From a virus: a stretch of 24,241 nucleotides of DNA. The stretch spans positions 1 through 24,241 of IMG/VR virus record IMGVR_UViG_3300008108_004915, one strand, 5' to 3'. The first letter of the stretch is position 1. Every line of letters starts with the position of its first letter. Of the stretch, positions 532 through 15,469 are shown one piece after another. The notes beneath the pieces are model-generated. The model was not told the DNA's origin. It saw nothing but the letters and a program-made list of their open reading frames with translations, and did not search any database. The translations under genes were made by a program, and so were the position numbers.

Positions 532-971
532 TGTCTAAATTTGCACAAGGTCGGTTTGAAATGAAAAATCCCGACAAGTACATAGGGAAGAAAACCCCTC
601 TGGCCCGCAGCTCGTGGGAGTTTGTATTCATGCGTATGCTAGACGAGCATCAGGGCGTTGAAAATTGGGCCAGCGAAAGCATACAGATACCCTATAGAGA
701 TCCCATGACAGGCAGATACACAATATATGTGCCTGATTTCTTTGTGGTCTACAAAGATAAATCAGGAAAAAAACATGCAGAAGTGGTAGAAGTAAAACCA
801 CAGAGTCAGACTCTGCGAGAATCTGTAGGCAAAAGCCGATATAATCAAGAACAGTATATTAAAAACATGGCCAAATGGGAAGCTGCTACTGCTTGGTGTA
901 AACAGCAGGGAATTAGGTTTCGGGTAGTGAACGAGGGTGATATTTTCCATCAAGGCACTAAACGCAGATAA
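531..971 (+). CDS. 4: Head completion protein gp4, TnsA/PD-(D/E)XK nuclease-like
   Basis: This 146-residue protein is close in length to T4 gp4 (about 150), which acts at the end of head assembly after DNA packaging. The sequence carries a TnsA-type nuclease core: Glu30 in SSWEF, Asp69 in YVPDFFVVY, and Glu87 with Lys89 in VVEVKP. These fit the PD-(D/E)XK metal-binding and catalytic arrangement. The C-terminal half (KWEAATAWCKQQGIRFRVVN) matches the usual end of this fold, and the tail EGDIFHQG is what I expect for marine T4-like gp4. The ATG overlaps the preceding stop and no strong Shine-Dalgarno is present, so coupled translation is likely. A late-promoter-like element for gp16 overlaps the stop codon. 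The fold and family are seen from motifs; the head-completion role comes from the T4 family. Confidence 0.85.
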   Translation: MSKFAQGRFEMKNPDKYIGKKTPLARSSWEFVFMRMLDEHQGVENWASESIQIPYRDPMTGRYTIYVPDFFVVYKDKSGKKHAEVVEVKPQSQTLRESVGKSRYNQEQYIKNMAKWEAATAWCKQQGIRFRVVNEGDIFHQGTKRR

Positions 972-974
972 GTA
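967..974 (+). promoter_or_regulatory. Late-promoter-like octamer before gp16
   Basis: GATAAGTA ends 4 bases before the ATG at 979. It differs at one position from GATAAATA found at 5068, 7581 and 10472, and it overlaps the stop of gp4. No Shine-Dalgarno sequence separates it from the start. In T4, late transcription starts roughly 6 bases past TATAAATA, so the message would begin at or next to the ATG. Confidence 0.5.
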
Positions 975-978
975 TGAT

Positions 979-1449
979 ATGACTAAAAAATTAGAAGAAC
1001 TATTTGATTTAGAATCTCAAGCTGAGCCAGCAGCACCGCCTCCGCCTGTACATGAAGAAATCAATAGTCTTGATGATCAATATCAAGCAGTGCAAAAGAT
1101 AGTACAAACACTGCCACATATACAAGAACTAGAAAATCTTGATGAGCAAGAACTAGATAATCTTGCCAAGAAAGCCGAACAGGCCTACGATGATCTCATG
1201 GATTTAGGCATGAATGTAGAAGTGAGATATTCAGGTAGGATATTTGAAGTAGCAAGTTCTATGATGGGCAACGCTATTACTGCCAAAAGCAACAAGATAG
1301 AAAAGAAACTCAAAGCAGTAGATCTACAGCTGAAAAAGCTAAAAATAGACAACGATGCTGGAGTAGATCCCAACAACGTAATAAACGGGCAGGGTTATGT
1401 GATAACAGATCGCAACGAACTGCTGAAAAAATTAAGCGGAAAAGCATAA
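979..1449 (+). CDS. 16: Terminase small subunit gp16
   Basis: The 156-residue protein is about the length of T4 gp16 (164). It has an acidic Pro-rich N-terminus, then two long helical segments. The central helix pair (EQELDNLAKKAEQAYDDLMDLG and the charged stretch through FEVASSMMGNAITAKSNKIEKKLKAVDLQLKKLK) resembles the oligomerising coiled core of T4-like small terminases, which form a ring and stimulate the gp17 ATPase during packaging. A longer reading frame reaches back to an ATG at 937 inside gp4. I prefer ATG 979 because it removes most of the overlap, gives the N-terminus MTKKLEELFDL, and sits 4 bases after a late-promoter-like octamer. Unlike T4, where genes 16 and 17 adjoin, three genes lie between them here. 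The call rests on pattern, position and length. Confidence 0.72.
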   Translation: MTKKLEELFDLESQAEPAAPPPPVHEEINSLDDQYQAVQKIVQTLPHIQELENLDEQELDNLAKKAEQAYDDLMDLGMNVEVRYSGRIFEVASSMMGNAITAKSNKIEKKLKAVDLQLKKLKIDNDAGVDPNNVINGQGYVITDRNELLKKLSGKA

Positions 1450-1452
1450 ATA
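1445..1452 (+). promoter_or_regulatory. Late-promoter-like octamer CATAAATA
   Basis: CATAAATA ends 5 bases before the ATG at 1458 and overlaps the stop of gp16. It contains the ATAAATA heart of the T4 late promoter. No Shine-Dalgarno sequence lies between it and the ATG, which points to a leaderless late transcript. Confidence 0.65.
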
Positions 1453-1457
1453 CTCAT

Positions 1458-2054
1458 ATGAAAACTTTTAAAGAATATCTCGTCGAAAACAAAAAAGTCT
1501 ACAGCTTTAAGATCAAAGTTGCGGGCGATGTTCCTGAAAAATTTCAAGAAGCATTAAAATCACGTCTAGACAGCTGCAAGGTCATGACTTTCGAAAAGTT
1601 GTCGACTACGCCTATACAAAAATTACCGTTGGATTTTCCAGGCAAAGAAAACATGCAGGTTACTATATATGAAGTGATTTGCGAATACCCAATTACTCCG
1701 CCTGAAATAGAAACTCATGTCAAAGCTATAGGCATTGATGAAGATTGTTTCCGTGTAAGAAACAGTGGCGAACCTACAGAAGCAGATCAGGTGTTGTTAG
1801 ATAACGAACCCAATGGCGAAGCTATGTTAGACGAACAAGACATGGACAAAGGCACAGGAAAAATCAAACACAAAGACTATTTTGGTGATGACTTCAATAA
1901 GGGATTCTTGAAAGATCTAAGCAAAACAGCCAAGCAGAGAACCAAAGATGGATTCGCTGCTGAATACAAAATACCCAAGCAAAAAATAGACAAAGCTGGA
2001 TCAATGAGTCCAATGTCAAACGCTGGCAAACCAGATCCACACAAAGGAAATTAA
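1458..2054 (+). CDS. Putative internal head protein with T4-type capsid-targeting N-terminus
   Basis: A 198-residue protein of unknown family. Its first ten residues, MKTFKEYLVE, match the capsid-targeting sequence of T4 internal protein III (MKTYQEFIAE, as I recall it) at five positions, with conservative changes at most others. The segment ends in Leu-Val-Glu, which fits the (I/L)-x-E cleavage rule of the T4 prohead protease gp21. Residues 15-100 look like a compact alpha/beta domain (YSFKIKVAGDVPEKFQEALK and a central beta-rich stretch around QVTIYEVICEYPI). The remaining half is polar, acidic then basic, with KHKDYFGDDFNKGFLKDL as its most ordered part. The start follows a late-promoter-like octamer by 5 bases without a Shine-Dalgarno. 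I infer packaging into the prohead; what the protein does there is unknown. It could instead be a core or scaffold component. Confidence 0.75.
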   Translation: MKTFKEYLVENKKVYSFKIKVAGDVPEKFQEALKSRLDSCKVMTFEKLSTTPIQKLPLDFPGKENMQVTIYEVICEYPITPPEIETHVKAIGIDEDCFRVRNSGEPTEADQVLLDNEPNGEAMLDEQDMDKGTGKIKHKDYFGDDFNKGFLKDLSKTAKQRTKDGFAAEYKIPKQKIDKAGSMSPMSNAGKPDPHKGN

Positions 2055-2056
2055 CT

Positions 2057-2779
2057 ATGAACTTTCAAGACCTATTGGCCAAAATGCAGGAGTTGGATAG
2101 GCCAGCCACAGAAGCCTGTGGTGATTCACCGATGTCACCTAGCATGCCAATGAGCATGCCGCCAATGCCAGAAAAACCAGATACTCCACCTCCAAGTATG
2201 AGTTTAAATCTCAATGCACAAGGCATGGACAACATTGAAGAACTAATGAAGCTGATGACTAAAGTTAATCCAGATATGATTAATCAGCCAGCACCAATGA
2301 GCTCTATCAGCATCGAGCCAATGGACAAGCCAATGGGCGGGCTACCTCCATTGAAGATGTTGCCAGATATGGACTCAGACAACGATGATATGCCGGGTGG
2401 AGAAATGGACAGCGATTATGATGACAGTGGAGATCTAGATGCACATGAAAAAGATCACGCAGACGAAAAACCATTGATCAAAACCCTAGACCGTGATGAC
2501 GACGGCGATCACGACATGGACGATCACGATGCTGAAAAGAAAAACAAAGACGAAGCATTTGGCAATTCACTGAACGGCTCAGATTCAGAATATGCAGGGA
2601 TAGATGCTGCTTTTCCAGACGGCGACGACCTAAACAAGCCTAAGAAAAGTTTTAGTGGTAAACCATATCGTGGCGACAATCCTATGGCAGCTGGAGCATA
2701 CGAAAGCAAAGAACAACTACGTGCCAGTATAAGAGAAGAACTTCTACAGAGATTGGCAGAAGCTAAAGGAGCGAAATAA
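2057..2779 (+). CDS. Met/Pro-rich acidic virion-type protein with a calcium-loop-like motif
   Basis: This 240-residue protein starts after a good ribosome site (AAAGGA at 2043-2048). Residues 1-15 are a short helix (MNFQDLLAKMQELDR). Residues 22-50 are dominated by Met, Pro and Ser. A helix follows at 57-72 (MDNIEELMKLMTKV). Residues 104-165 are extremely acidic. Within them D145-x-D147-x-D149-G150-x-x-D153-x-x-D156 has the spacing of thrombospondin type 3 and EF-hand-like calcium loops. The C-terminal 25 residues form a charged amphipathic helix ending LLQRLAEAKGAK. Composition and position suggest a scaffold, core or internal head protein, but no named family is recognised. Its TAA overlaps the ATG of the next gene, so translation is coupled. 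Confidence 0.75.
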   Translation: MNFQDLLAKMQELDRPATEACGDSPMSPSMPMSMPPMPEKPDTPPPSMSLNLNAQGMDNIEELMKLMTKVNPDMINQPAPMSSISIEPMDKPMGGLPPLKMLPDMDSDNDDMPGGEMDSDYDDSGDLDAHEKDHADEKPLIKTLDRDDDGDHDMDDHDAEKKNKDEAFGNSLNGSDSEYAGIDAAFPDGDDLNKPKKSFSGKPYRGDNPMAAGAYESKEQLRASIREELLQRLAEAKGAK

Positions 2780-3423
2780 TGTCAGGATTTAAAATTTCAA
2801 CTGAGTCACTAAGACCAGAATTTTATCAAGTTGTAATTACACTAACTGGTGGTGCAGGAACATATCCTACAGCAGACGGTAATGACAACGGTGCTGTATG
2901 CCCACAAGATCACAGTCAATTTGCTACTAAGCCAACTACATTGGCAATCGGTCGTCGAGTGGCAAGAGGTCATCAACGTTTTTTAGCCATTGTTGAAAAT
3001 CTACAAAAATACGCAGATGCACAGATCCAAGATGTACAGTTTACCAGTGCTGGTGCAACAGCAGCAGATAATCAAGCAACAGCAGTGACATTCACAGTGA
3101 GATATGATCGTGCAGGTGCAGCAGGTGCAGGAGTAACTGAGGGGGTGTTGGGCGGTACAAGAGCAGAAATTGGAACTCCATTCCAATTTACAGCTACCAC
3201 AGACGGTACAATCACTGTCGATACAACAGCTAAAGCTCTACGCTATCAAATTGGTCAGGCGATTGGCAGAACTAACCACGTTAAAAGCATGAGAGTGTGG
3301 GATGGTGCGCAAGGTGCTGAAATCCAAGAATCACTAACTGTTACATTACCTGATACACTTGCTGACATTTACAAAGATGTAGCTGTAACATTAGTTGATG
3401 CAGCAGAAACTATTGATTCTTAA
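2779..3423 (+). CDS. Probable virion structural protein, function unknown
   Basis: The 214-residue protein starts at ATG 2779 after AAAGGAG, a strong ribosome site, and overlaps the previous stop by one base. It is rich in Ala, Thr, Gly and beta-forming residues, with repeated short strands (VVITLTGGAG, AVTFTVRYDR, FQFTATTDGTITVDT, ESLTVTLPDT), no signal peptide and only one cysteine. This composition is typical of secreted or particle-exposed beta proteins and of phage head or tail subunits. It is the last gene before a strong terminator. I compared it mentally with tail tube gp19 and saw no convincing likeness. A capsid decoration or tail-related protein is possible. Confidence 0.75.
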   Translation: MSGFKISTESLRPEFYQVVITLTGGAGTYPTADGNDNGAVCPQDHSQFATKPTTLAIGRRVARGHQRFLAIVENLQKYADAQIQDVQFTSAGATAADNQATAVTFTVRYDRAGAAGAGVTEGVLGGTRAEIGTPFQFTATTDGTITVDTTAKALRYQIGQAIGRTNHVKSMRVWDGAQGAEIQESLTVTLPDTLADIYKDVAVTLVDAAETIDS

Positions 3424-3440
3424 TCAATTTATACATAATC

Positions 3441-3468
3441 AAATAGGCTCTCCGGAGCCTATTTTTTT
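3441..3468 (+). terminator. Rho-independent terminator after the gp4-gp16 gene group
   Basis: A perfect 10-bp stem (AAATAGGCTC at 3441-3450 with its complement at 3455-3464) closes a TCCG loop and runs into a tract of seven T at 3462-3468. It lies 18 bases after the stop at 3423 and ends the first transcription unit just before gp17. Confidence 0.92.
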
Positions 3469-3469
3469 C

Positions 3470-3477
3470 ATTAAATA
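3470..3477 (+). promoter_or_regulatory. Late-promoter-like octamer before terminase gp17
   Basis: ATTAAATA ends 5 bases before ATG 3483, directly after the terminator. The same octamer at the same distance precedes the gene at 14657. It differs from ATAAATA-type copies by one base, and no Shine-Dalgarno is present. Confidence 0.5.
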
Positions 3478-3482
3478 AACAT

Positions 3483-5069
3483 ATGTCAAAATCCTTAGAC
3501 GGCAATCTAATTAAGAAAGCCCATGCACAGATCCGTTACAATTTAGATGAGGTTAAACATCTAGAAGCTTGTATGGATCCAGTTACTGGCCCTTTATATT
3601 TTGCTAAAAACTTTATAAAAATACAGCACCCTACTAGAGGGTCAATTCCATTTGAACCTTACGGGTTTCAAGAACTGTTAATTGAAGCATACCACACCAA
3701 CAAAGAATGCATAGCCATGTTGCCACGTCAGATGGGCAAGACCACATGTGCTGTGGCATACCTATTATGGTATACCCAGTTTATGCCGGACGTACAGGTA
3801 TTGATTGCTGCGCACAAGTACGAAGGTGCTCGAGACATCATGGATCGTTATAGGTACGCCTATGAAAATTTACCCGACTTTATCCGTGCCGGGGTGTATT
3901 CGTATAATAGAAATACCATCGAATATGATAATGGATCACGTATACAGGCAACTACCACAACTGAAAACACAGGCCGTGGTAAATCTCTGTCATTGATCTA
4001 TTGTGATGAGTTTGCGTTTGTGCAACCTCCTGAAAAAGCCAAAGAGTTCTGGACTGCACTATCACCAACATTGGCCACAGGCGGTAAAGCAATTATCACA
4101 TCAACGCCCAACAGTGACGAAGACCAATTTGCTATGATTTGGTTAGAAGCCAACAAGCGATTTGACGATTTCGGCAATGAAACTAAATTAGGAGTTAACG
4201 GCTTCTATCCGTTTTTTGCACCGTGGCAGGAACATCCAGACCGCGATGACGAGTGGGCCAGATTAGAACGTGCTAAAATTGGAGAAGAACGGTTCCGTAG
4301 AGAGTTTGAATGTGAGTTCTTGATCTATGACGAAACACTGATCAACTCTGTGAAGTTAGTCGAACTTGCGGGATCAGACCCTATTATGAACATGGGGCAA
4401 ACACGATGGTACAAAGATATCAGTCCCAAGGCCACATACCTTGTTGCGTTAGATCCTAGTTTAGGCACAGGCGGAGACTACGGTGCCATACAGGTCTACG
4501 AAATGCCTGAAATGGTACAGGTAGCAGAATGGCATCACAATACCACTCCTGTACAGCAACAGGTCAGGGTCATGAGAGAAATATTAAAATATATTCACGA
4601 ACGTGGCGAAGAAAAGGGCGGTGCTCCTATCATCTACTATTCAGTTGAAAACAACAGTCTTGGTGAATCGGCACTGGTTGTAATCAATGATATAGGCGAA
4701 GAAAACTTTCACGGGCTGTTTCTTTCAGAACCTATACGCAAAGGGCATATACGCAAGTTCCGTAAAGGTTTCAACACCACACATAGAAGCAAGATTAATG
4801 CTTGTAGCCAGTTGAAAAACATGATTGAAAATCACAAGATGACTATCCACAGTAAACCGCTGATATCCGAGCTGAAAACATACGTGGCGTCTGGATTGGG
4901 CTTTAAAGCTAAGAGCGGCGAGCACGACGATCTAGTCAGCTCGACACTGCTGATCATGCGCATGGCCGATGTGTTAGCGGACTGGGATCCACAGATCTAT
5001 GACAAAATGACGGAGAAAATCAACGACGATGCCATGCCTATGCCGATCTTTGTAAGCATGGGTCTTTGA
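3483..5069 (+). CDS. 17: Terminase large subunit gp17 (packaging ATPase and nuclease)
   Basis: The 528-residue protein is the motor that pumps DNA into the prohead and cuts the concatemer. N-terminal ATPase domain: Walker A PRQMGKTT (81-88), Walker B LIYCDE (171-176) with catalytic Glu176, and coupling motif STPN (207-210). C-terminal RNase H-like nuclease domain: Asp324 in LVALDPSLGTGG, Glu389 in YYSVENNS, and an Asp pair in GEHDDLVSS (482-483). All expected acidic residues are present, so both activities should be intact. It is shorter than T4 gp17 (610), mainly at the N-terminus. The start has no Shine-Dalgarno and follows a late-promoter-like octamer by 5 bases. The stop codon overlaps the late-promoter-like octamer of the next gene. 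Confidence 0.97.
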   Translation: MSKSLDGNLIKKAHAQIRYNLDEVKHLEACMDPVTGPLYFAKNFIKIQHPTRGSIPFEPYGFQELLIEAYHTNKECIAMLPRQMGKTTCAVAYLLWYTQFMPDVQVLIAAHKYEGARDIMDRYRYAYENLPDFIRAGVYSYNRNTIEYDNGSRIQATTTTENTGRGKSLSLIYCDEFAFVQPPEKAKEFWTALSPTLATGGKAIITSTPNSDEDQFAMIWLEANKRFDDFGNETKLGVNGFYPFFAPWQEHPDRDDEWARLERAKIGEERFRREFECEFLIYDETLINSVKLVELAGSDPIMNMGQTRWYKDISPKATYLVALDPSLGTGGDYGAIQVYEMPEMVQVAEWHHNTTPVQQQVRVMREILKYIHERGEEKGGAPIIYYSVENNSLGESALVVINDIGEENFHGLFLSEPIRKGHIRKFRKGFNTTHRSKINACSQLKNMIENHKMTIHSKPLISELKTYVASGLGFKAKSGEHDDLVSSTLLIMRMADVLADWDPQIYDKMTEKINDDAMPMPIFVSMGL

Positions 5070-5075
5070 TAAATA
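5068..5075 (+). promoter_or_regulatory. Late-promoter-like octamer GATAAATA
   Basis: GATAAATA overlaps the TGA of gp17 and ends 5 bases before the ATG at 5081. It fits the T4 late consensus TATAAATA at seven of eight positions. No ribosome site lies between it and the ATG. Confidence 0.68.
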
Positions 5076-5080
5076 TACTT

Positions 5081-6967
5081 ATGGACGCAACAAATAACAT
5101 AGCTACAGATTTATTCTACAAGGTACGCAGCCGGTTCTCCGGCTTGAAACTAGGTGCAGGTTCGGGTGAGATCACTATCAATCCAGAACAGGCTAGGTTC
5201 TTTGATTTTGACTACACAGAAGGGCAAAATCCCATAGGACATGTTAGTATCAGCCTTGCAGAACCCAACTCTATGAAAGTGTATTTTTCTAATGGAATTA
5301 CAGAAGGCATGGATGACGGGCAGAAAACAAACTGGTACGGCTTCTTGAAAGAACTGCGTCAATTTGCTAAACGAAGATTATTAAGTTTTGACACACGTGA
5401 TATTGCTAAAGACAATTTAGATAAAAGAGATTACGAGTTCCTAAGTCAAAATGCACAACCTAAACCACAGACAAATATGATACAGAAATCAGTCGGAGAA
5501 AGCCTAATGAGTGAAAGCACAATGTATGGTAGCAAAACAATGAGCTATCAAAAATTAATGGACACACGTCTAATTATCAAACACAGCCATGCAGTGATGG
5601 ATGACACACAACCGGGTGCCAGAACTAGAAACATCAATGCATTGTTTGTAGAGAATCAAGACGGTGAACGTTTTAAATATCCGTTTATTCATCTAGCAGG
5701 CGCTCGTGCCATGCAGCGTCACGTGGCCAATGGCGGCTTGCCCTACGATGATCTAGGCAAGAGCATTACACAAATGAGTGAAGAAATTGCTCAACTCAAG
5801 AGTTTCGGCAACTATGTAGTACGCAACGATCTAATGAATTCAGACACTAACTCAGTGGTTGAAAGAAGCACAGAGTATCTAAATCATCTAAGAGAACAGA
5901 TCAAAGCATTAAGCAAACAAAGCCACTACGAGGCATACAAAGAAAACTTCCAGGCCTATGACAGCGAAGAAATACCTCAAGACGTAGTAGAAGATTTCAA
6001 ACAAAAATTCACTGTGAGATCTTTTAAAGAAGATATCGCAACAGTGTTTCCAGTCTTGTATAGACTGATGAAAGAAGGAAACACCATAGGCTATGACGAC
6101 ATAGTCGCTATGACACAACAAGAAATCAACAACGAAGACCTAACGGTTGAAACAGAAGATAACGATCCATTCGTGCAATTTGAAAACTGGGTTATGGGGC
6201 TAGGCGAAGAAAGCTCAGTGACCAGCGAAGATCCTGAAGAACAGGCAGCAGCACTACAAAGCCTACAAGAATTGGTAGGCCAACACTTCCCAGCAGGAGT
6301 TGACGGCACTAATGCTATCGAAAGCCTCAAAGGCCTAATCGAAGATCCAGAACTATACAAACGAATTAAAGAACAGGCAGCAGAAGATCCAGATGCATGT
6401 GTGAGACCATTGGTTAAAGATTGGTTGGAATTCAATGCACCTGAAGCACTAGAACAGTTAGATTTTGGCGACATGGTGGATGACCCGGAAGCAGCCCAAG
6501 GAGGTGACCAAACTGCCCCGGAAGCGGAACCAGCACCAGTTGATCCAGCAGCAGCGGCTGTACCTGCAGAGGAACCAGTACCGCAAGAAGCTGTGGATCC
6601 CGATAATCCTAGAGACTACGAAAGACCAGCAGTGGATAGAAAGAAATCAGGTCAATCTCCACTGACTATGAAAGACGTGGAATACAAGGATGACAAGCCC
6701 AAGCGAGATTTTGAAAAGAGAAAGCAAAGGCTTAACACCGAAGAATTAGCAGAGTTTATCACATCATTTTATGATCGTGACACAGGCACATTCCCTAAAG
6801 GCCCAGAAGGCGTTGCAATCATGGTAGGTAAGAAGTTTGGTGAACAGGCAGAATCAGTAGCTCGAAGATTTGTAGAGCGTATGGCTCCTCAACAAACTAC
6901 TGAACAAAATCCAGAACTATCGCGTATCAGAGAATTATCTGGAATATCACAAGGCATTGGAATGTAA
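5081..6967 (+). CDS. Large protein of unknown function downstream of terminase
   Basis: This 628-residue protein is taken from ATG 5081 (MDATNNIATDLFYKV). An upstream TTG at 5066 would overlap gp17 and lie inside the promoter-like octamer. Residues 1-75 look like a small beta-rich domain, and 76-130 form a basic helical region. Residues 150-230 contain a possible second domain (LIIKHSHAVMDDTQPGARTRNI), followed by mainly helical, acidic sequence to about 460. A Pro/Ala/Glu-rich linker occupies roughly 467-515. A charged helical C-terminal domain ends NPELSRIRELSGISQGIGM. There is no transmembrane segment, signal peptide or known catalytic motif. Late-type promoter, size and position argue for a virion or head-assembly protein, but I do not recognise its family. 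A strong terminator follows. Confidence 0.8.
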   Translation: MDATNNIATDLFYKVRSRFSGLKLGAGSGEITINPEQARFFDFDYTEGQNPIGHVSISLAEPNSMKVYFSNGITEGMDDGQKTNWYGFLKELRQFAKRRLLSFDTRDIAKDNLDKRDYEFLSQNAQPKPQTNMIQKSVGESLMSESTMYGSKTMSYQKLMDTRLIIKHSHAVMDDTQPGARTRNINALFVENQDGERFKYPFIHLAGARAMQRHVANGGLPYDDLGKSITQMSEEIAQLKSFGNYVVRNDLMNSDTNSVVERSTEYLNHLREQIKALSKQSHYEAYKENFQAYDSEEIPQDVVEDFKQKFTVRSFKEDIATVFPVLYRLMKEGNTIGYDDIVAMTQQEINNEDLTVETEDNDPFVQFENWVMGLGEESSVTSEDPEEQAAALQSLQELVGQHFPAGVDGTNAIESLKGLIEDPELYKRIKEQAAEDPDACVRPLVKDWLEFNAPEALEQLDFGDMVDDPEAAQGGDQTAPEAEPAPVDPAAAAVPAEEPVPQEAVDPDNPRDYERPAVDRKKSGQSPLTMKDVEYKDDKPKRDFEKRKQRLNTEELAEFITSFYDRDTGTFPKGPEGVAIMVGKKFGEQAESVARRFVERMAPQQTTEQNPELSRIRELSGISQGIGM

Positions 6968-6988
6968 CAGTTTCGTCGCAGTTAGATC

Positions 6989-7012
6989 GGGCACTTCGGT
7001 GCCCTTTCTTTT
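6989..7012 (+). terminator. Rho-independent terminator with UUCG tetraloop
   Basis: GGGCAC (6989-6994) and GTGCCC (6999-7004) pair around TTCG, giving the very stable C(UUCG)G tetraloop. TTTCTTTT follows. It lies 21 bases after the stop of the 628-residue protein. Confidence 0.92.
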
Positions 7013-7031
7013 GGCTAAATGAAATCAAACT

Positions 7032-7097
7032 TTTATGTAAACGTTTAGTCCTACTAAAGCGTTATATATATACGTAGGGAATATTCTTTACGTAAAC
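7032..7097 (+). promoter_or_regulatory. Regulatory gap with TTTAYGTAAAC repeats and a weak promoter
   Basis: TTTATGTAAAC (7032-7042) recurs as TTTACGTAAAC (7087-7097), 55 bases apart. The second copy contains a perfect palindrome TTTACGTAAA, and a third TACGTA lies at 7071-7076. Between them is a possible hairpin (AACGTTTAG at 7040-7048 against CTAAAGCGTT at 7054-7063, with one bulge). A TATATATA run follows at 7063-7072 and could serve as a -10 region, with GTTTAG at 7043 as a poor -35. The layout suggests operator sites around the promoter of the downstream secreted-protein gene. Confidence 0.4.
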
Positions 7098-7572: not shown

Positions 7573-7601
7573 TTGACCTTGATAAATAAAAAGCGCATAA
7601 T
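7573..7601 (+). promoter_or_regulatory. Sigma70-type promoter of gp32 with a nested late octamer
   Basis: TTGACC (7573-7578) and CATAAT (7596-7601) are separated by exactly 17 bases, each one base from the sigma70 consensus. Inside the spacer GATAAATA (7581-7588) is the same late-type octamer found at 5068 and 10472. The early start would be near 7608 and the late start near 7594, leaving leaders of about 50 and 65 bases. Dual control would match T4, where gp32 is made both before and during the late phase. Confidence 0.65.
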
Positions 7602-8627: not shown

Positions 8628-8636
8628 TAGCTAAAC

Positions 8637-8686: not shown

Positions 8687-9766
8687 ATGGCAAAAGCATT
8701 TGATATTTCTAAATTTAGAAAGTCAATTACTAAATCTATCGACGGTTTAAGTATTGGCTTTAACGACCCAACAGATTGGGTCAGTACAAACAACTACGCA
8801 TTAAATTATCTAATCAGCGGCGACTTTAAACGTGGTATTCCGTTAGGTAAGGTAACTGTGTTCGCAGGTGAAAGTGGTGCAGGTAAGAGTTTTATCTGTT
8901 CAGGTAACCTAGTTAAGAACGCACAAGCACAAGGTATCTTTCCTATCCTGATCGATACAGAAAACGCACTAGACGAAAAGTGGTTACACGCACTTGACGT
9001 TGATACAAGCCCAGATAAGTTGTTGAAACTTAACATGGCCATGATTGACGATGTGGCAAAGACTATTACAGAATTTGTTGCAGAATACAAAACAATGCCC
9101 GAAGACGAGCGTCCTAAGGTGTTGTTCATCATCGACTCGTTGGGAATGTTACTGACTCCCACGGATGTTAACCAGTTTCAAGCCGGGGATCTCAAAGGCG
9201 ACATGGGTCGTAAGCCTAAAGCACTAACAGCACTGGTTCGTAACTGTGTGAACATGTTTGGTAGTTTAGGTATTGGTCTAGTAGCAACTAATCACACATA
9301 CGCAAGTCAGGATATGTTTGATCCAGATGATAAGATCTCAGGCGGTCAAGGTTTCATTTACGCATCTAGTATCGTTGTTGCTATGCGTAAACTAAAACTG
9401 AAACTTGATGCAGACGGTAACAAGACTACAACTGTACAAGGTATTCGTGCAGCCTGTAAGATCATGAAAACACGTTATGCAAAGCCCTTTGAAAGTGTAC
9501 AGGTCGAGATTCCTTATGAAACAGGTATGAGTCCATATAGTGGATTGGTCGACTTGTTTGAAGCCAAAGGCATGCTCAAAAAAGAAGGTAACAGCCTTGT
9601 CTACACCACCAAAGACGGTGAGATCATCAAACAGTTCCGTAAGGCATGGGAACGCAATGAGAAAGATGGGCTTGACATCGCCATGGAGGACATTTCAAAA
9701 CATGGCGAAATTTCCGCTTCAGAGATAACTACTATTGTTGAACCTGAAACGGAGATTACTGAATGA
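8687..9766 (+). CDS. uvsX: UvsX, RecA-like recombinase
   Basis: This 359-residue protein (T4 UvsX: 391) forms ATP-dependent filaments on single-stranded DNA for strand exchange and recombination-dependent replication. Walker A is GESGAGKS (61-68), closer to RecA than the unusual T4 version. Glu92 in DTENA is the likely catalytic glutamate, and Walker B is VLFIID (145-150). DNA-binding loop regions follow at about 160-185, and 200-225 includes TNHTYASQDMF and the glycine-rich ISGGQG. The C-terminus is charged. An AGGG motif lies 10 bases before the ATG. It follows gp32 after a stem-loop, and its stop overlaps the next ATG (ATGA). Confidence 0.95.
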   Translation: MAKAFDISKFRKSITKSIDGLSIGFNDPTDWVSTNNYALNYLISGDFKRGIPLGKVTVFAGESGAGKSFICSGNLVKNAQAQGIFPILIDTENALDEKWLHALDVDTSPDKLLKLNMAMIDDVAKTITEFVAEYKTMPEDERPKVLFIIDSLGMLLTPTDVNQFQAGDLKGDMGRKPKALTALVRNCVNMFGSLGIGLVATNHTYASQDMFDPDDKISGGQGFIYASSIVVAMRKLKLKLDADGNKTTTVQGIRAACKIMKTRYAKPFESVQVEIPYETGMSPYSGLVDLFEAKGMLKKEGNSLVYTTKDGEIIKQFRKAWERNEKDGLDIAMEDISKHGEISASEITTIVEPETEITE

Positions 9767-9996
9767 AAGAAGATTTAATTGCTGACCTGTGGCATGTGGT
9801 GATTGGACATATTCCTGAAAAACAAAGACCAGATGTGGCCACTGATTTTGTAAACACATTGTTGGACTATGGTATTAAAGAAAGTGTGTTAGACAGTCTG
9901 CAAGGAGTAGATCCTTTTCTCGACGAAGCTATTACATACGCTATCGACGGCGAAGAGATCGATGATGACACAGACAGCTACGACGAAGAGGAATAA
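9763..9996 (+). CDS. Small acidic protein between uvsX and uvsY, function unknown
   Basis: A 77-residue, strongly acidic protein starts in an ATGA overlap with the uvsX stop, so it is translationally coupled. Residues 1-40 form helices (LIADLWHVVIGHIPEKQRPDV and TDFVNTLLDYGI), followed by SVLDSLQGVDPFLDEAITYAI. The last 15 residues are nearly all Asp, Glu, Ser and Tyr. The stop is directly adjacent to the ATG of the uvsY-like gene. Its fixed place in the recombination operon suggests an accessory to UvsX or UvsY filament assembly, or a DNA mimic. That is inference only; I know of no defined function for it. Confidence 0.85.
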   Translation: MKEDLIADLWHVVIGHIPEKQRPDVATDFVNTLLDYGIKESVLDSLQGVDPFLDEAITYAIDGEEIDDDTDSYDEEE

Positions 9997-10452
9997 ATGA
10001 ATTGGTACGACAAGGTCAGTAAAGATATAAGCAACATTCCCGATGCTGCGGCCTATTATGAAGCTGAGTTAATCGAAGCAAAACAAGATGTCCGCATAGC
10101 GGGAAACATCGAGAAGGCAAGTTCGCAAATGCCTGGCATCGTGGAAGAACGTTTTAATCAACTTCAAGAAATTGAAGGTATCCTTGAGTACTTAAACATT
10201 GAACTTCGAAGGCTTCGTAGTCAGCATTTTCGCAAATATTTAGAAAACTATCAACGAGCTTTATCTTCTAGGGACTGTGAAAAGTTTGTAGAAGGTGAAG
10301 CTGACGTTGTAGATTTTGAAAAGATCATCAACGATTTTGCCTTGCTTCGAAATAAATGGTTAGGTATTATCAAAGCACTTGATCAAAAACAATGGCATCT
10401 AAGTAACATTGTTAAACTACGAGTATCTGGTCTAGAAGACGCCAGTCTTTAA
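9997..10452 (+). CDS. uvsY: UvsY-like recombination mediator
   Basis: The 151-residue protein compares with 137 in T4 UvsY, which forms ring-shaped oligomers that load UvsX onto gp32-coated single-stranded DNA. It is almost wholly helical. The central block IEGILEYLNIELRRLRSQHF and the following KYLENYQRALSSRDCEKFVEGE carry the basic and acidic helix pattern I associate with UvsY. The C-terminal helix (about 120-148) contains LGIIKALDQKQWHLSNIVKLR. It directly follows the uvsX operon with a GAGGAA ribosome site and zero intergenic bases. In T4, uvsX is encoded elsewhere and uvsY lies next to uvsW; here uvsX and uvsY are together and uvsW is 11 kb away. Confidence 0.82.
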   Translation: MNWYDKVSKDISNIPDAAAYYEAELIEAKQDVRIAGNIEKASSQMPGIVEERFNQLQEIEGILEYLNIELRRLRSQHFRKYLENYQRALSSRDCEKFVEGEADVVDFEKIINDFALLRNKWLGIIKALDQKQWHLSNIVKLRVSGLEDASL

Positions 10453-10468
10453 ATACTGGATAATATAC

Positions 10469-10484
10469 GCAGATAAATATCTGC
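10469..10484 (+). promoter_or_regulatory. Late-promoter-like octamer inside a perfect inverted repeat
   Basis: GATAAATA (10472-10479) ends 5 bases before ATG 10485. It is embedded in GCAGATA-AA-TATCTGC (10469-10484), a perfect 7-bp inverted repeat with a 2-base centre. There is no Shine-Dalgarno. This element opens the glycan island on the plus strand. Confidence 0.62.
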
Positions 10485-10955
10485 ATGAAACGCATTGTAT
10501 TAATCACCGGAGGATTTGATCCTCTTCACTCTGGGCATATTGCCTACATCAACTCAGCACGAGAACTCGGCGATTCGTTAATCGTTGGAGTTAATTCTGA
10601 CGAATGGTTACGCAGAAAGAAGGGGCAAGAATTTATGCCCTGGGAAGAACGTGCAACTATTATTTCAGCACTTCACTATGTTGATCGGGTTATTAACTTT
10701 GATGACAGCGATAACAGCGCCAAGGATGCTATTAGAAAAGTTCGATCAATCTACCCGACTGCACAAATAGTCTTTGCCAACGGTGGAGACAGAACCAAAG
10801 AAAACATCCCAGAGATGGATCTACTTCAAGAGATGCTTCATTTAGATTTTGTATTTGCTGTCGGCGGCGATGATAAAAAGAACTCAAGCAGTTGGATCCT
10901 ACAAGAATGGGCCTACGTGCCGAGTACTGGATTGTCAGCGAAGGTGAAGCAATAG
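10485..10955 (+). CDS. HldE/RfaE-like cytidylyltransferase-fold nucleotidyltransferase
   Basis: A 156-residue protein of the cytidylyltransferase fold, which joins a nucleotide to a phosphorylated sugar or alditol. It has GGFDPLHSGHIAYINSA with the nucleotide-binding HxGH (15-18) and SDEWLRRKKG for substrate and phosphate contacts. MPWEERATIISALHYVDRVI also resembles the heptose-1-phosphate adenylyltransferase half of HldE, and FANGGDRTKENIPE and a second signature NSSSWIL follow. The substrate cannot be set from motifs; ADP-heptose-like, CDP-glycerol-like and other products are possible. After residue 142 the sequence loses sense and stops, while a cupin sequence continues in the -1 frame. 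This suggests the gene was once longer (see the next entry). Its late octamer lies 5 bases before the ATG. Confidence 0.85.
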   Translation: MKRIVLITGGFDPLHSGHIAYINSARELGDSLIVGVNSDEWLRRKKGQEFMPWEERATIISALHYVDRVINFDDSDNSAKDAIRKVRSIYPTAQIVFANGGDRTKENIPEMDLLQEMLHLDFVFAVGGDDKKNSSSWILQEWAYVPSTGLSAKVKQ

Positions 10956-11134
10956 TTAATAGACAAATGGAAAGCGGGTATTCCTTACCATCTGTTCATT
11001 TAAGAAAACATATAGAATATAAAGTGCCTGTAAAAGAATGGCATCAGTTAACTAATCCGTTCGATGTCCCAGTAAAAGTAGTCGAAATACAATACGGCGA
11101 ACAATGCATTGAAGAGGACATAGAAAGAAAATGA
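10907..11134 (+). pseudogene. Fragment of a mannose-6-phosphate isomerase-type cupin, out of frame with the upstream gene
   Basis: Seventy-five residues from ATG 10907 give the C-terminal half of a type II mannose-6-phosphate isomerase/GMP-type cupin. RAEYWIVSEGEAIV is the first beta motif, KEWHQLTNP the metal-site region and VKVVEIQYGEQCIEEDIER the typical end. The first part of the cupin, with the residues that normally precede RAEYW (an RPWG-type start and PG..LS..H motif), is missing. The nucleotidyltransferase upstream ends in the 0 frame at the same spot, overlapping this frame by 49 bases. In aquatic phages I recall these two domains fused in one protein. The simplest reading is an out-of-frame deletion of roughly 40 codons. 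It could still be translated as a small protein, but the sheet would be incomplete. Its stop overlaps the ATG of the next gene. Confidence 0.6.
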
Positions 11135-11811
11135 TTCCAATTTTTATCGGATACGACCCCCGAGAAGCTATAGCATACCATGTATGCACAAATAGTATTA
11201 TTAGACATTCTAGTCATCCGGTGAGTATTAATCCCTTGGCATTGAATATACTAAAAGACTACGAAGAAAAACACACAGACGGTAGTAATCATTTTATCTA
11301 TAGTCGTTTCCTAGTACCTCACTTAATGCAATATAAAGGTTGGGCAATATTCATGGACGGCGACATGTTGTTACGAGACGATATTGAAAAGCTATGGGCA
11401 TTGAGAGATGAGTCAAAAGCAGTAATGGTTGTTAAACATGACTATAAAACTAAAATGACTGAAAAATATCTTGGTTCTAAAAATGAAGATTATCCTTGTA
11501 AAAATTGGTCAAGCGTGATCCTTTGGAACTGTGGCCATCCTGCCAATGCTGTAGTTACTCCGGAATTTATACAAAACGCCACAGGGGCACAGGTACATAG
11601 ATTTACATGGCTCGCTGATGAGCTGGTTGGCGAATTACCAGCTGAATGGAATTGGTTAGATATTGAATATGAATGGAACCCCCAAGCAAAATTAGTTCAT
11701 TATACATTAGGTACTCCTTGTTTCCATGAGTTCGCCGACCAAGGCGATTTTGCCAACGAGTGGCATAGAGAAAAAATTTATGTAGATTATTGTCTACAAC
11801 ACGGCCTATGA
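11131..11811 (+). CDS. Glycosyltransferase, GT-A fold, GT8-like
   Basis: This 226-residue protein starts in an ATGA overlap with the cupin fragment. It begins with a short Rossmann strand (IPIFIGYDPREAIAYHVCTNSI) typical of compact bacterial and phage GT8-type transferases. It carries FIYSRFLVPHL (55-65) before the metal- and nucleotide-sugar-binding DxD, D76-G-D78 in AIFMDGDMLL. Late motifs are TWLADELVGELPAEWN and LVHYTLGTPCF, the latter placing a His near the active site as in GT8 enzymes. It should be cytosolic, as no membrane segment is present. Donor and acceptor cannot be read from sequence. It is coupled to the following paralog array by another ATGA overlap. Confidence 0.82.
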   Translation: MIPIFIGYDPREAIAYHVCTNSIIRHSSHPVSINPLALNILKDYEEKHTDGSNHFIYSRFLVPHLMQYKGWAIFMDGDMLLRDDIEKLWALRDESKAVMVVKHDYKTKMTEKYLGSKNEDYPCKNWSSVILWNCGHPANAVVTPEFIQNATGAQVHRFTWLADELVGELPAEWNWLDIEYEWNPQAKLVHYTLGTPCFHEFADQGDFANEWHREKIYVDYCLQHGL

Positions 11812-12605
11812 TATTTCTCAGCAAAAACGGAGAAGATCCCTACATCAATATGTTTGCACAAGGCTGCAAAACTAAATTCACAGCCACTGAAGATTTTCAA
11901 TACAGCAGCAGTCAGGATCCTATTGTGCTGAGAGGTATTCTTAAAAAGAAAATAATTCACAAGTGCTGGGAAGATCGTCGCGATTTCTATTATGTAGACA
12001 CGGGCTATTTTGGCAATGAAATTACAAATTCTAATCCTAATGGATGGAAGTATTGGCATCGTATAGTAAAAAATGATTTGCAGCACAACACAGTAATAAA
12101 ACGTCCGGATGATAGATTTCGACATTTTAACAAAAAAATACACGCATGGAAAACACCTGGCAGAAAAATATTGATTGCCAAGCCTGACGAAAAACCTATG
12201 AAGTTCTATGACTATGACATGAAGACATGGCTGGATCACGTAGTAGCGACTATTAGACAACATACTGATCGTCCGATTGAAATTCGTGATCGTGCGGCTA
12301 AAAGATTAGATCGCATGGTGACCAATACACTACAAGAAGCCTTGGACGATGATGTATTTGCCCTGGTAACTTTTAACAGTGTAGCAGCCACTGAGGCTGT
12401 GTTTTATGGGGTGCCAGTCTTTACTTTAGCTCCTTCGAACGCAGCAGCGCCTATGGGATTACAGGATCTCAGTCTAATAGAAACGCCTCGATATCCAGAC
12501 ACTGACGAGAGATATCAGTGGGCATGTCATTTGGCCTACGGACAGTTTCACAACAGTGAGTTATCTTCCGGACGTGCATTAGAATTACTACAAGAGAATT
12601 TTTAA
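11808..12605 (+). CDS. Paralog A of a five-member family, putative GT-B-like glycosyltransferase
   Basis: ATG 11808 in an ATGA overlap is taken as the start (265 residues), in preference to an upstream TTG. The N-half contains YYVDTGYFGN and then YWHRIVKNDLQH. The C-half contains KTWLDHVVATIRQHTDRPIE, then FNSVAATEAVFYGVPVF and the closing WACHLAYGQFHNSEL block. The same order of motifs recurs in the genes at 12609, 13708, 14657 and 20419. The SxAATEAxxxGxPV stretch resembles the nucleotide-sugar-binding part of GT-B enzymes such as the capsule Kdo transferases KpsC/KpsS and CDP-glycerol transferases. That link is a pattern judgement. There is no membrane segment. Confidence 0.75.
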   Translation: MIFLSKNGEDPYINMFAQGCKTKFTATEDFQYSSSQDPIVLRGILKKKIIHKCWEDRRDFYYVDTGYFGNEITNSNPNGWKYWHRIVKNDLQHNTVIKRPDDRFRHFNKKIHAWKTPGRKILIAKPDEKPMKFYDYDMKTWLDHVVATIRQHTDRPIEIRDRAAKRLDRMVTNTLQEALDDDVFALVTFNSVAATEAVFYGVPVFTLAPSNAAAPMGLQDLSLIETPRYPDTDERYQWACHLAYGQFHNSELSSGRALELLQENF

Positions 12606-12608
12606 AAT

Positions 12609-13715
12609 ATGAAAGCACTTATAAGCGACAAAGAGATAGCAAATTTTTTAGTCACAACGATTGCTAACAGTTTCAGTGATGCTGACATAGAAACTGCACT
12701 GTCTCTCGAATATAACGAACAAGAAACAGGCAACGAAATTTTAAATATTATTGAAAAGAGAGATGCAGGTAAAATAGATAAGTTTAAGGATAAGTTAAAA
12801 GGAAAACTGAGGTTAGCAGTAGATAGAGATTTACGAGCTCATATCGAAAAACTTCAAAACTTTTTAAACAACACAAGAAAAAGAAAAGAATATGTTATTC
12901 GACAAAACTTTTCAAAAATTGTGGAAAAGTTAGGTGTTGAGAATATCCTAGACTTGTATAAACTCAGCGATGAACACGGGTTTGTTAAGTCAGTGGGATT
13001 ACAAATTGATGAAAACACCCAGTTAGTTAGACGATCGACATATCAAAATTCGTTAGACGACTGCATTTTAAGAAACACCACAGGCAACGAAAATATCTTG
13101 GTTGACAAGATAGATAATGCTCTTCCGTTTTGGTTTATTGATTCCGGATACACTAATTTTTTAGAAGGCAAGCAGAAAAAATGGCATCGACTAACTAGAA
13201 ATCACATCCATCAATTGCCAACATTTCAACCGCCGGTTGACAGATTGTCGATATTTAAAGAATTTCCAAAGCCGTGGCGTACTGGTGGCAGCGATATATT
13301 GATAATTGAACCCGGCCCATTTTCTGCGGCAATCTTTCATGTAGATGTACAACAATGGAGGAATGCCATTGAATCAGAATTGAGAAAATACACCGATAAA
13401 CCGATTAAATTTAGACCGAAAATAGATAAAAAGAATAGACAATCATTATACCAAGAATTATTAAATGAAGATTATTATTGTGTGATAAACATCAATTCAA
13501 ACGCTGCCACTGAAGCAGTGTGGGCAGGAATACCTATAATTACACTTGACAGACATATAACCAATTCGATTAGTCGATCAAAGATTTCAGAAATAAATGA
13601 TCTCGCGAGGCCGCATTTAGCTAATTGGCTGTGCATGCTCAGTTACAGTCAATTCACCTACAATGAATTAATAAACGGCACTGCATCAGCAATAATAAAA
13701 AACTATCATGTCTAA
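12609..13715 (+). CDS. Paralog B of the putative GT-B-like family, with an N-terminal extension
   Basis: This 368-residue protein is about 100 residues longer than its relatives. Residues 1-110 are a charged helical extension with coiled-coil character (KFKDKLKGKLRLAVDRDLRAHIEKL), absent from the other copies. The family signatures then follow: FWFIDSGYTN (about 174-183), KKWHRLTRNHIHQ, QQWRNAIESELRKYTDKPI, INSNAATEAVWAGIPIITL and NWLCMLSYSQFTYNEL. It starts 3 bases after paralog A with only weak ribosome-site likeness and overlaps paralog C by 8 bases. It looks more A/T-rich than its neighbours by eye. The extension may recruit a partner or another subunit. Enzyme activity is inferred from the family likeness. 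Confidence 0.75.
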   Translation: MKALISDKEIANFLVTTIANSFSDADIETALSLEYNEQETGNEILNIIEKRDAGKIDKFKDKLKGKLRLAVDRDLRAHIEKLQNFLNNTRKRKEYVIRQNFSKIVEKLGVENILDLYKLSDEHGFVKSVGLQIDENTQLVRRSTYQNSLDDCILRNTTGNENILVDKIDNALPFWFIDSGYTNFLEGKQKKWHRLTRNHIHQLPTFQPPVDRLSIFKEFPKPWRTGGSDILIIEPGPFSAAIFHVDVQQWRNAIESELRKYTDKPIKFRPKIDKKNRQSLYQELLNEDYYCVININSNAATEAVWAGIPIITLDRHITNSISRSKISEINDLARPHLANWLCMLSYSQFTYNELINGTASAIIKNYHV

Positions 13716-14652
13716 ATATACTGCGGTTGCATACTTCGGAGGAATTCCTCCTAATAACACCAATACAGAAAAACCGTTAATCTTGACTAATTTCTGTCAG
13801 GGGGTAACAGCCGCCGGCGACACTGCGATATTACACAAGGGAATGGATGCGATTCCATGTGATGTGGCGTTAATTCAGGGATTTGTACACGAGCATGGCA
13901 AAGACTCGCCCCACCTTAGATTAAGAAGAGCTGCTATTGATCTGCAAAGAAGAAATAATAAACGATCGTTGATTGTTGATAGTAATTTGTTCTTATATGC
14001 TAATAAAGAAAATCCGTTACACTACCTTAGATATAGTTTTGATGGAGTATTTCCAACAACAGGATTTTACTTTGATACTGAAATTGATCCTAGCCGCTGG
14101 CAAAAAATCAGCAAACATTTAAATTTAAGTTTAAAAGATTATCGAAGTCACGGCGAACACATATTAATATGTCTACAGCGTAACGGTGGGTGGAGTATGG
14201 CTGGACTTGATGTACAAGATTGGGCTATAAACACTGTTAATATTTTAAGACAATACACTGACCGCCCTATCGTTATTAGAGCTCATCCGGGTGATAAAGC
14301 AGCACGTGAATACCTCGATCCTAAAAGTCCTAAATGTAAAATAAAATTTTCTAAAGCAGTTAGACTCAGTACCAACACAAATTTAGTAGACGACCTGCGT
14401 AATTGTTGGGCCGCAGTGAATTACAACTCCAGTCCAGTGGTAGGAGCAGCTATAGAAGGCATACCGATATTTGTCATGGATTCGATCAATAGTCAATGTG
14501 CTGAAATTGCCAACACTGATTTATCAAAAATAGAAACACCAACTATGCTAGATCGGCAATCTTGGGTCGAACGACTCGGCATGTTTCATTGGAATTTCCA
14601 AGAGCTCACCTCCGGTGAGTGTTGGCAGCATATACGCAAGTTCATTAAATAA
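13708..14652 (+). CDS. Paralog C of the putative GT-B-like family
   Basis: The protein has 314 residues. Family signatures in order are RSLIVDSNLFLY, LHYLRYSFDGVF, QDWAINTVNILRQYTDRPI, VIRAHPGDKAAREY, NYNSSPVVGAAIEGIPIFVM and SWVERLGMFHWNFQELTSG. The RAHPGD segment is the best match of the array to the HPxE-like phosphate-contacting motif found in capsule and teichoic acid GT-B transferases, which makes this copy the most enzyme-like. The start overlaps paralog B by 8 bases and has no Shine-Dalgarno. The last codons overlap the late-type octamer of paralog D. Confidence 0.75.
   Translation: MSKYTAVAYFGGIPPNNTNTEKPLILTNFCQGVTAAGDTAILHKGMDAIPCDVALIQGFVHEHGKDSPHLRLRRAAIDLQRRNNKRSLIVDSNLFLYANKENPLHYLRYSFDGVFPTTGFYFDTEIDPSRWQKISKHLNLSLKDYRSHGEHILICLQRNGGWSMAGLDVQDWAINTVNILRQYTDRPIVIRAHPGDKAAREYLDPKSPKCKIKFSKAVRLSTNTNLVDDLRNCWAAVNYNSSPVVGAAIEGIPIFVMDSINSQCAEIANTDLSKIETPTMLDRQSWVERLGMFHWNFQELTSGECWQHIRKFIK
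14644..14651 (+). promoter_or_regulatory. Late-promoter-like octamer before paralog D
   Basis: ATTAAATA ends 5 bases before ATG 14657, the same octamer and spacing as before gp17. It overlaps the stop region of paralog C. No Shine-Dalgarno is present. Confidence 0.45.
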
Positions 14653-14656
14653 GTTG

Positions 14657-15469
14657 ATGTATAAATTTCAAGTAACACAGCTAGATTGGTCAGAGAATCC
14701 GTGGTTTCAAAATTGGAAAAACATAAAGGTGGTAGATACCTGGAAAGATGTTTCTAGCGATCTTCCAGTAATTATTGGATCTGATTTATTAAAATATCAA
14801 GTACGCCAGTGGTTAAAAACTTCTCAACCTGCAATTTACATAGGTCGAGGATACCTAGGTAATCATATAGGCAAAGGGCGTTGGTGGTGGCGGTATAGTA
14901 TAAACAGTTGGGCCAATACACAATTAATGCCAATACCGTATTCTAGATGGAAATTAACCGAACTCCCTAAGCATCCGTGGAAAGTTAAAACAATTAAAAA
15001 TATTTTGTTGTGTCCTAGTAAAATGACAGGGCACGTATGGGGTTCTAATCAAAACGGTAATTGGACCGATCAACTGATGGATAAATTTCCAGGAGCAACT
15101 ATTAGGATCAGGGCAAAGGAAAGAAAATCCAAATTACGATGGGCAACACTATGGAGCGATCTAGATTGGGCAGATCTTGTAATCGCTCAATCATCTGCAA
15201 TAACCTGCGAAGCATTTTGGTATGGAAAGAAAGTTATCAGCTTAGAACCGTGTCCGACATGGGCAGCTGGAAGAACCTTTCTAGATAATTGGCAGGACCC
15301 TACAGAACCAGCAGGAAGAGAACAATGGCACGAGCACCTAGCATGGAGTCAGTTTTCTAGAAACGAATGGGAAACTGGAATTGCCTTCGATCTTATTGAA
15401 AAATACTTAGGTCCTGTTATGGATTATAAATCTAATTATTCTTATAATCTAGTAGAAGATTTTAACTAA
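14657..15469 (+). CDS. Paralog D of the putative GT-B-like family, tryptophan-rich
   Basis: ATG 14657 gives 270 residues; alternative GTG or TTG starts upstream would overlap paralog C. Family signatures are IYIGRGYLGN, WWRYSINSWANT, LMDKFPGATIRIRAKERKS, AQSSAITCEAFWYGKKVISL and QWHEHLAWSQFSRNEWETG. It is unusually rich in Trp, mostly where relatives have other aromatic residues. The gene ends by overlapping the minus-strand reductase gene at 15462 by 8 bases, tail to tail. Catalytic activity is inferred from family likeness. Confidence 0.75.
   Translation: MYKFQVTQLDWSENPWFQNWKNIKVVDTWKDVSSDLPVIIGSDLLKYQVRQWLKTSQPAIYIGRGYLGNHIGKGRWWWRYSINSWANTQLMPIPYSRWKLTELPKHPWKVKTIKNILLCPSKMTGHVWGSNQNGNWTDQLMDKFPGATIRIRAKERKSKLRWATLWSDLDWADLVIAQSSAITCEAFWYGKKVISLEPCPTWAAGRTFLDNWQDPTEPAGREQWHEHLAWSQFSRNEWETGIAFDLIEKYLGPVMDYKSNYSYNLVEDFN

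Follow-up and report, generated by a model that had tools for sequence, protein, structure and literature searches.

Late genes of bacteriophage T4 are expressed from an octamer promoter, TATAAATA, with gp55, gp33 and gp45, and the late messages usually carry Shine-Dalgarno (SD) leaders. Messages devoid of a leader are described elsewhere: parts of earlier reports present leaderless genes of Deinococcus-Thermus with a -10 box adjacent to the open reading frame (ORF) and a spacing requirement (PMC12340547), predict TA-led leaderless genes in many bacteria (PMC3160421) and cite lambda cI as a leaderless phage mRNA that starts at its AUG (PMC9031893). According to one passage, phage transcripts are "often leaderless" (PMC5312081), so that the existence of leaderless phage mRNA was already known. 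Kasugamycin is reported to leave leaderless messages unaffected (PMC5230787). Here we analyse the IMG/VR virus fragment IMGVR_UViG_3300008108_004915, 24,241 bases long (hereafter the window), in which T4-type late octamers lie at a fixed short distance from start codons. The best explanation, to which we give a probability of about 0.83, would be leaderless or near-leaderless mRNA made from promoters "docked" on the start codon, of the late type (gp55) as well as of the host type (sigma70).

Throughout, the gap is the number of bases between the end of the promoter element and the start codon, a docked octamer is NTAARTA at gap 4-5, and an SD is called from a match of at least 4 nt to AAGGAGGT at SD spacing. 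As the preliminary description had reported, six octamers of the window end 4-5 bases before an ATG, five of them at exactly 5 (Table 1). None of the six genes has an SD (0/6), whereas AAGGA/AGGAG-type sequences precede the contrast genes at 2057, 2779, 7118 and 7659. Docked octamers stand before 6 of the 28 window gene starts; when the upstream regions were dinucleotide-shuffled 3000 times, the count averaged 0.13 and reached at most 2. The position alone is informative: enrichment of the octamer per se was rejected as a signal, WTAARTA being found 17 times on both strands of the window for 24 expected, and a perfect TATAAATA is absent from the window. A gene caller based on codon usage recovered five of the six docked starts, 979 not being picked.

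The fixed distance is retained in close relatives, a sequence check that had been asked for beforehand. The nearest named phage is the Pseudomonas jumbo phage PA5oct, whose terminase large subunit (TerL) is 54.5% identical. At least 427 IMG/VR stretches encode a TerL relative, and 80 of them were kept as close relatives (L001-L080), among which three are of 281,658, 280,019 and 269,730 bases (G001, G002 and G003). Conservation was counted over copies where the homologous ATG was located, a protein match within the first six residues being required, and nearly every copy has the octamer at gap 4-5: 60/60 before homologues of 979 (gap 4 in 59, gap 5 in one), 75/75 before TerL (gap 5 in 72, gap 4 in three) and 3/3 before 14657. 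Gap 5 is found in 59/60 copies for 1458 and in 33/34 for 10485, and gap 4 or 5 in 75/76 for 5081, one copy of 1458 and one of 5081 being at 7. Nine other window genes, treated in the same way, had no octamer recorded at gap 4-5 in relatives. The string ATAAATA-N5-ATG gave 88 matches, present in all 15 relatives of at least 48 kb searched, and the reversed control 2; moreover, codon-like conservation begins directly after the docked ATGs. Spacer length is kept more strictly than spacer sequence, last base excepted. Over distinct rows, the middle bases are 39-61% identical in 979, 1458 and TerL and 66-69% in 5081, and the base directly before the ATG is 84-100% conserved, mostly T, in these four genes; the rows were picked for having the octamer, so that its core and the ATG are invariant by construction. 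The palindrome GCAGATAAATATCTGC around the octamer at 10472 is unchanged in 27 of the 34 relatives; possible reasons are an operator function or coinciding constraints.

In G001, G002 and G003 the distance from NTAARTA to ATG is bimodal (ORFs of at least 60 aa), with respectively 29, 29 and 21 sites at gap 4-5, 9, 10 and 7 at 6-13, and 39, 48 and 43 at 14-35. An SD accompanies 3 of the 79 sites of the near peak versus 81 of the 130 of the far one (Fisher 2e-19, a difference that is partly geometric). First-ATG ORFs at gap 4-5 number 23, 24 and 18, for about 2 expected. The codon-usage caller, which is blind to upstream sequence, places 20, 22 and 14 docked genes in these genomes, 3 in PA5oct and 0 in T4; it scores codons and start-codon type and penalises non-ATG starts, and all its docked genes begin with ATG. 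An unsupervised scan of hexamers by position over 1507 starts found TAAATA at gap 5 in 40 cases for 3.6 expected, among the strongest signals beside the SD. Since their base profiles are similar, with a core TAA(A/G)TA and G then A favoured before TAAATA, docked and leadered octamers look like one element at two distances. The -35 box is mostly missing at docked octamers, the best TTGACA match having 3-5 mismatches in 51 of 65 and 1-2 in 14 of 65. In G001, two divergent ORFs of unknown function (246253-246945 and 246973-247785; L093:6253-7785) have starts 27 bases apart, each with a docked octamer, and the two promoters would overlap back to back.

The preliminary description had presented docking as a trait of late promoters. 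Late-type octamers do dock, but sigma70-type promoters dock too. A seventh docked gene of the window, 21275, absent from the earlier list, follows such a promoter; similar ones precede its homologues in G001 and G002, the promoter in G003 being weaker. In the hexamer scan, TTGACA stood out at gap 29 when the starts were pooled, as did TATAAT at gap 6 in G002 and G003. Searched with at most one mismatch in each box, TTGACA-N16-18-TATAAT peaks at gap 6 (5, 9 and 5 sites in G001, G002 and G003), and no SD accompanies any of the 23 sites at gap 5-7 in these genomes; at the same gaps T4 has no site and PA5oct one. With a looser -35 box, the primase and SbcD genes are docked at gap 6 in all three genomes, the DnaB helicase (gaps 7 and 5) and QueE (gap 5) genes in two of three.

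A TATAAT box spans -12 to -7, so that +1 is the seventh base after it and gap 6 puts +1 on the A of ATG; transcription starts prefer a pyrimidine at -1 and a purine at +1. The T4 late octamer starts at -13 according to part of PMC2988020; spanning -13 to -6, it would have +1 at the sixth base after it, and gap 5 puts this base on the A of ATG. Each promoter type would thus sit where its own +1 is the A of ATG, which is not expected of a translation signal. With +1 on this A, a bias towards pyrimidine at -1 is expected, and a pyrimidine is found there in 35/40 gap-5 genes (P 5e-8) and 25/31 sigma70-docked genes (P 6e-5) versus 79/191 SD-led genes, genes with neither feature having 306/588. At gap 4-5 the start codons are 79 ATG and 7 GTG/TTG, other gaps having on average 4.07 ATG and 2.92 GTG/TTG. 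This AUG preference is the one expected of leaderless genes from the E. coli rule, as part of PMC9031893 states that non-AUG starts are far less efficient in leaderless translation there.

The late sigma factor, homologous to PA5oct gp346, is encoded in 6/6 records. The G001 protein matches phrog_234, the family of T4 gp55, at E 3e-24, and the solved gp55 structure 7d7c at E 4e-5; the motif and this sigma factor are what suggests "late" timing. The octamers would then be T4-type late promoters, read by host RNA polymerase with the phage gp55-like sigma. With the octamer at -13 to -6, transcription would begin at the A of the start codon for gap 5, or one base off for gap 4, and the host ribosome would engage the leaderless message at its 5'-terminal AUG. 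A second gene set has the same octamer 14-35 bases upstream, mostly with an SD leader, and a third one, in which primase, SbcD and helicase genes are included, has host-type TTGACA/TATAAT boxes docked mainly at 6 bases, where +1 would again fall on the ATG. This reading draws on a spacing that is fixed and conserved, the two peaks of the distance distribution, a distance particular to each of the two promoter types, the -1 pyrimidine at gap 5 and the sigma factor. The leaderless reading of the preliminary description passes, for this phage and its close relatives, the sequence tests that it proposed. The phage ribosomal protein S21 was considered as a cause and rejected, a homologue being found in 1/10 records, so that it is not required. 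This homologue lies at 15466-15624 of G002 (L142), and PA5oct and the Pelagibacter phage HTVC008M are also annotated with one.

The AT-rich octamer could instead be a translation signal, replacing the SD on a longer mRNA as in SD-poor bacteria, and no promoter. Its position tied to the start codon and the absence of SD would suit such a role, which we nevertheless judge very improbable: octamers of similar profile are found again 14-35 bases before SD-led genes, the host-type promoter with its -35 box docks one base further, at 6, following its own geometry, several spacer bases vary at a conserved spacer length, and the TerL octamer has a terminator directly upstream. This terminator also bears on the idea that the octamers are real promoters but that ribosomes arrive mostly by termination-reinitiation on polycistronic mRNA, in a context of tight gene packing. 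Consistent with reinitiation, four of the six window genes start 4-11 bases past an upstream stop that the octamer overlaps. However, TerL follows an intrinsic terminator whose TATTTTTTT T tail precedes the octamer in 72/75 relatives, the tail-tube-like gene has a T run ahead of its octamer in 3/3 genomes (judged by eye), the two divergent G001 ORFs mentioned above both have docked octamers, and compaction alone would not place one promoter type at gap 4-5 and the other at 6; reinitiation as the main route is therefore unlikely in our opinion. Finally, the starts were taken from ORF rules and not from proteomics, and the codon-usage caller skips 979, so that start codons could be misplaced, the true ones lying downstream behind normal leaders. 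We give this hardly any credence, as protein matches of relatives begin within the first six residues (itself a condition of that count), codon-like conservation follows the ATG directly, and the caller blind to upstream sequence finds its docked genes in all three genomes, with ATG throughout under its penalty on other starts.

Leaderless expression from docked promoters also has to face several observations that weigh against it or restrict it. Several other window genes have neither SD nor octamer. An octamer at gap 4-5 leaves little of the SD site free, so the lack of SD is partly geometric and is not independent evidence, and a 4-nt SD-like match is present in 21 of 173 distinct docked starts of the 80 close relatives. 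Gap-4 genes have no -1 pyrimidine bias (8/17), and some of the 23 docked G001 ORFs are short and may be spurious. Profiles of the coactivator gp33 (phrog_254) and the clamp gp45 (phrog_223) match T4 only among five records including G001-G003 and PA5oct, and remote homologues may be missed. Docking of sigma70-type promoters is not visible in the TerL loci of close relatives (one site each at gaps 6 and 7, and 12 at gap 20) nor in those on the PA5oct side (3, 1 and 1 at gaps 5, 6 and 7), these 160 loci together being cut around TerL; it is visible in a marine clade (1, 9 and 4 at gaps 5, 6 and 7). In this clade (L236-L315, near a Betaproteobacteria metagenome-assembled genome, MAG), the TerL octamer is at gap 7 in 75/76 and at 8 in the remaining copy, and the octamers of its genes are most frequent at gaps 5, 6, 7 and 9 (97, 94, 65 and 46 of 1381 distinct starts). 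A leader of exactly zero bases is therefore not universal, and the TerL leader would there be 2-3 bases. The relatives expected to share the fixed distance do so when close; the marine clade spreads over gaps 5-9, and T4 and PA5oct are without the pattern.

Across phages, TAAATAN4-5ATG exceeds its reversed control in G001 (29 vs 7), G002 (30 vs 5), G003 (21 vs 9) and HTVC008M (16 vs 7). There is no clear excess in T4 (10 vs 12), PA5oct (20 vs 30), Atu_ph07 (17 vs 26), CBB (7 vs 22), 121Q (6 vs 25), Vibrio 2.275 (6 vs 5), P-SSM2 (6 vs 10), Syn9 (3 vs 7) or KVP40 (3 vs 5), and Phosso (4 vs 2) has too few sites to tell. T4 and PA5oct, tried as further examples of docking, are negative. HTVC008M (L152-L154), whose record names Ca. 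Pelagibacter ubique HTCC1062 as host, has 13 first-ATG ORFs at gap 4-5 for 1.4 expected, among them genes with head closure, DNA end protector and baseplate annotations. Its docked octamers occur for example at 6280, 18943, 19456, 49760 and 75559, and it is apparently an independent case. In its IMG/VR relatives gap 5 is less distinct, with 28 of 1841 starts, 25 being at gap 19. Among 80 TerL loci on the PA5oct side, the octamer is at gap 4-5 in 55 and at 6-8 in 6, five being SD-led and 14 having neither. On a TerL tree with 119 rows, 10 changes suffice to explain the gap 4-5 state versus 35.8 for shuffled labels; the tree was made in quick mode, with long branches flagged, and serves for clustering and not as a rooted history. 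PA5oct, whose TerL has an SD, stands in it beside docked relatives, on a long branch. Docking is a lineage feature whose exact distance is constant at the level of subclades only, and PA5oct, the named member, is without it.

Gene classes were assigned in G001-G003 by homology to PA5oct proteins (39 queries, not all matched). The head-tail adaptor Ad2, a tail-tube-like protein, gp283 (possibly the small terminase, TerS), gp282, TerL and gp278 have a docked octamer in 3/3 genomes, and an SD leader is found in 3/3 for the major capsid, scaffold, sheath and main tube proteins. Portal, UvsX, SbcC and others are variable, or neither docked nor, in several genomes, SD-led, and the octamer of a large baseplate wedge gene is docked in G001, where a 4-nt SD-like match is also present, and lies at gap 18 in G002 and G003. 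Functions were looked up for 17 of the 23 docked and 8 of the 11 sigma70-docked G001 ORFs, four being counted as counterparts of window genes. The 13 further docked ORFs gave five late/structural families or adenylyltransferase, one radical SAM family and seven without match; the eight sigma70-docked proteins gave four DNA-metabolism families, one QueE, two families of unknown function and one without match. It is suggestive that the docked proteins would be the low-copy ones, and copy number was not retained as a rule, since the tail-tube-like protein is docked and portal, UvsX and SbcC fit neither class. Tentatively, and with more doubt than confidence, we propose that this T4-type jumbo lineage and, independently, a Pelagibacter myovirus have two translation regimes, in which docking of host or late promoters would make the messages of low-copy late genes (terminase, neck, tail-completion, baseplate) and of some replication genes leaderless, and high-copy proteins (major capsid, scaffold, sheath, tube) would be SD-led. 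Promoter placement might then set stoichiometry or exploit a host state favouring leaderless initiation.

Table 1. Docked promoters, the genes behind them and other features of the window (E, E-value of the match)
Feature	Position	Strand	Remarks
Docked late-type octamer GATAAGTA	967..974	+	gap 4 to ATG 979; overlaps upstream stop 969-971
Gene, predicted leaderless mRNA; possible small terminase (weak)	979..1449	+	phrog_16202 E 2e-14; phrog_445 TerS E 6e-4
Docked late-type octamer CATAAATA	1445..1452	+	gap 5 to ATG 1458; overlaps upstream stop 1447-1449
Gene, predicted leaderless mRNA	1458..2054	+	no PHROG match; G001-G003 counterpart homologous to PA5oct gp282, structural protein
Intrinsic terminator, 10-bp stem 3441-3464 and T tail	3441..3468	+	ends directly before TerL octamer
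Docked late-type octamer ATTAAATA	3470..3477	+	gap 5 to ATG 3483
Terminase large subunit, predicted leaderless mRNA	3483..5069	+	phrog_36964 E 1.6e-115
Docked late-type octamer GATAAATA	5068..5075	+	gap 5 to ATG 5081; begins inside TerL stop
Virion structural protein, predicted leaderless mRNA	5081..6967	+	phrog_13484 E 2.5e-17; G001-G003 counterpart homologous to PA5oct gp278
Docked late-type octamer GATAAATA	10472..10479	+	gap 5 to ATG 10485; inside palindrome GCAGATAAATATCTGC (10469-10484)
Heptose-phosphate adenylyltransferase-like gene, predicted leaderless mRNA	10485..10955	+	phrog_7878 E 1.3e-31
Docked late-type octamer ATTAAATA	14644..14651	+	gap 5 to ATG 14657; overlaps upstream stop 14650-14652
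Gene of unknown function, predicted leaderless mRNA	14657..15469	+	no PHROG match
Docked sigma70-type promoter TTGACA-N17-TATACT	21240..21268	+	gap 6 to ATG 21275 (site through spacer 21274)
Gene, predicted leaderless mRNA from sigma70-type promoter	21275..22459	+	adjoins DNA helicase gene
GATAAATA, candidate leadered promoter, for contrast	7581..7588	+	70 bases upstream of gp32-like 7659
Head closure gene	531		PHROG match
gp32-like gene	7659		PHROG match; strong SD
UvsX gene	8687		PHROG match
UvsY gene	9997		PHROG match
DNA helicase gene	22407		PHROG match

PHROG matches assign the window to the part of a T4-type phage genome that holds packaging and recombination genes. Very probably, it comes from a jumbo phage that is distantly related to PA5oct and T4-like in its core genes. 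The preliminary description of a "T4-like phage" fits these core genes; a close relative of T4 it is not, but a PA5oct-related jumbo phage. It had also placed both terminase subunits among the leaderless genes: the large one is secure, and the small one depends on a weak phrog_445 match. PA5oct shares the gene order head closure, 283, 282, TerL and 278 counterparts, with differing genes between them. Betaproteobacteria were considered as host and set aside, the single relative in a Betaproteobacteria MAG, with 64% TerL identity, being too weak a basis to name one. Beside the recombination genes lies a minus-strand gene block (15462-20368), in which two genes are nucleotide-sugar-epimerase-like (phrog_540) and several have no PHROG match.

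In the open-licence literature of PubMed Central, we found no earlier description of docked T4-type late promoters across a jumbo lineage alongside an SD-led class. Docking may bear on the failure of late-promoter prediction in pelagimyophages, which part of PMC7029224 reports, and HTVC008M is a cultured phage with the docking pattern, open to testing. If our reading is true, a widespread aquatic phage lineage would be a natural laboratory for leaderless translation, and start-codon calling in metagenomic phages as well as the design of compact expression systems could benefit.

Compared with the known systems, T4 has in common the octamer, a weak or absent -35 box and an encoded gp55-family sigma. 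It differs by 49 sites at 14-35 bases (28 with SD) and only four at gap 4-5 (one first-ATG ORF), and by the profile matches to gp33 and gp45 described above. Lambda cI is one regulatory gene, whereas the layout described here is genome-wide. Parts of the reports on cyanophage late promoters, NATAAATA (PMC2984593, PMC3037559), present the same octamer in T4-like phages; P-SSM2 and Syn9 differ in that TAAATA, not in excess at gap 4-5, is so at 20-29 (75 vs 50 and 38 vs 19 in the control). Deinococcus-Thermus and TA-led genes, as far as the cited parts describe them, share the -10 element a few bases before the ORF and the leaderless mRNA, but there the promoter is that of the host in bacteria, whereas here phage late-sigma and host-type promoters would both dock and an SD-led class is kept. 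Promoters docked on the start codon are unusual for T4-type late genes.

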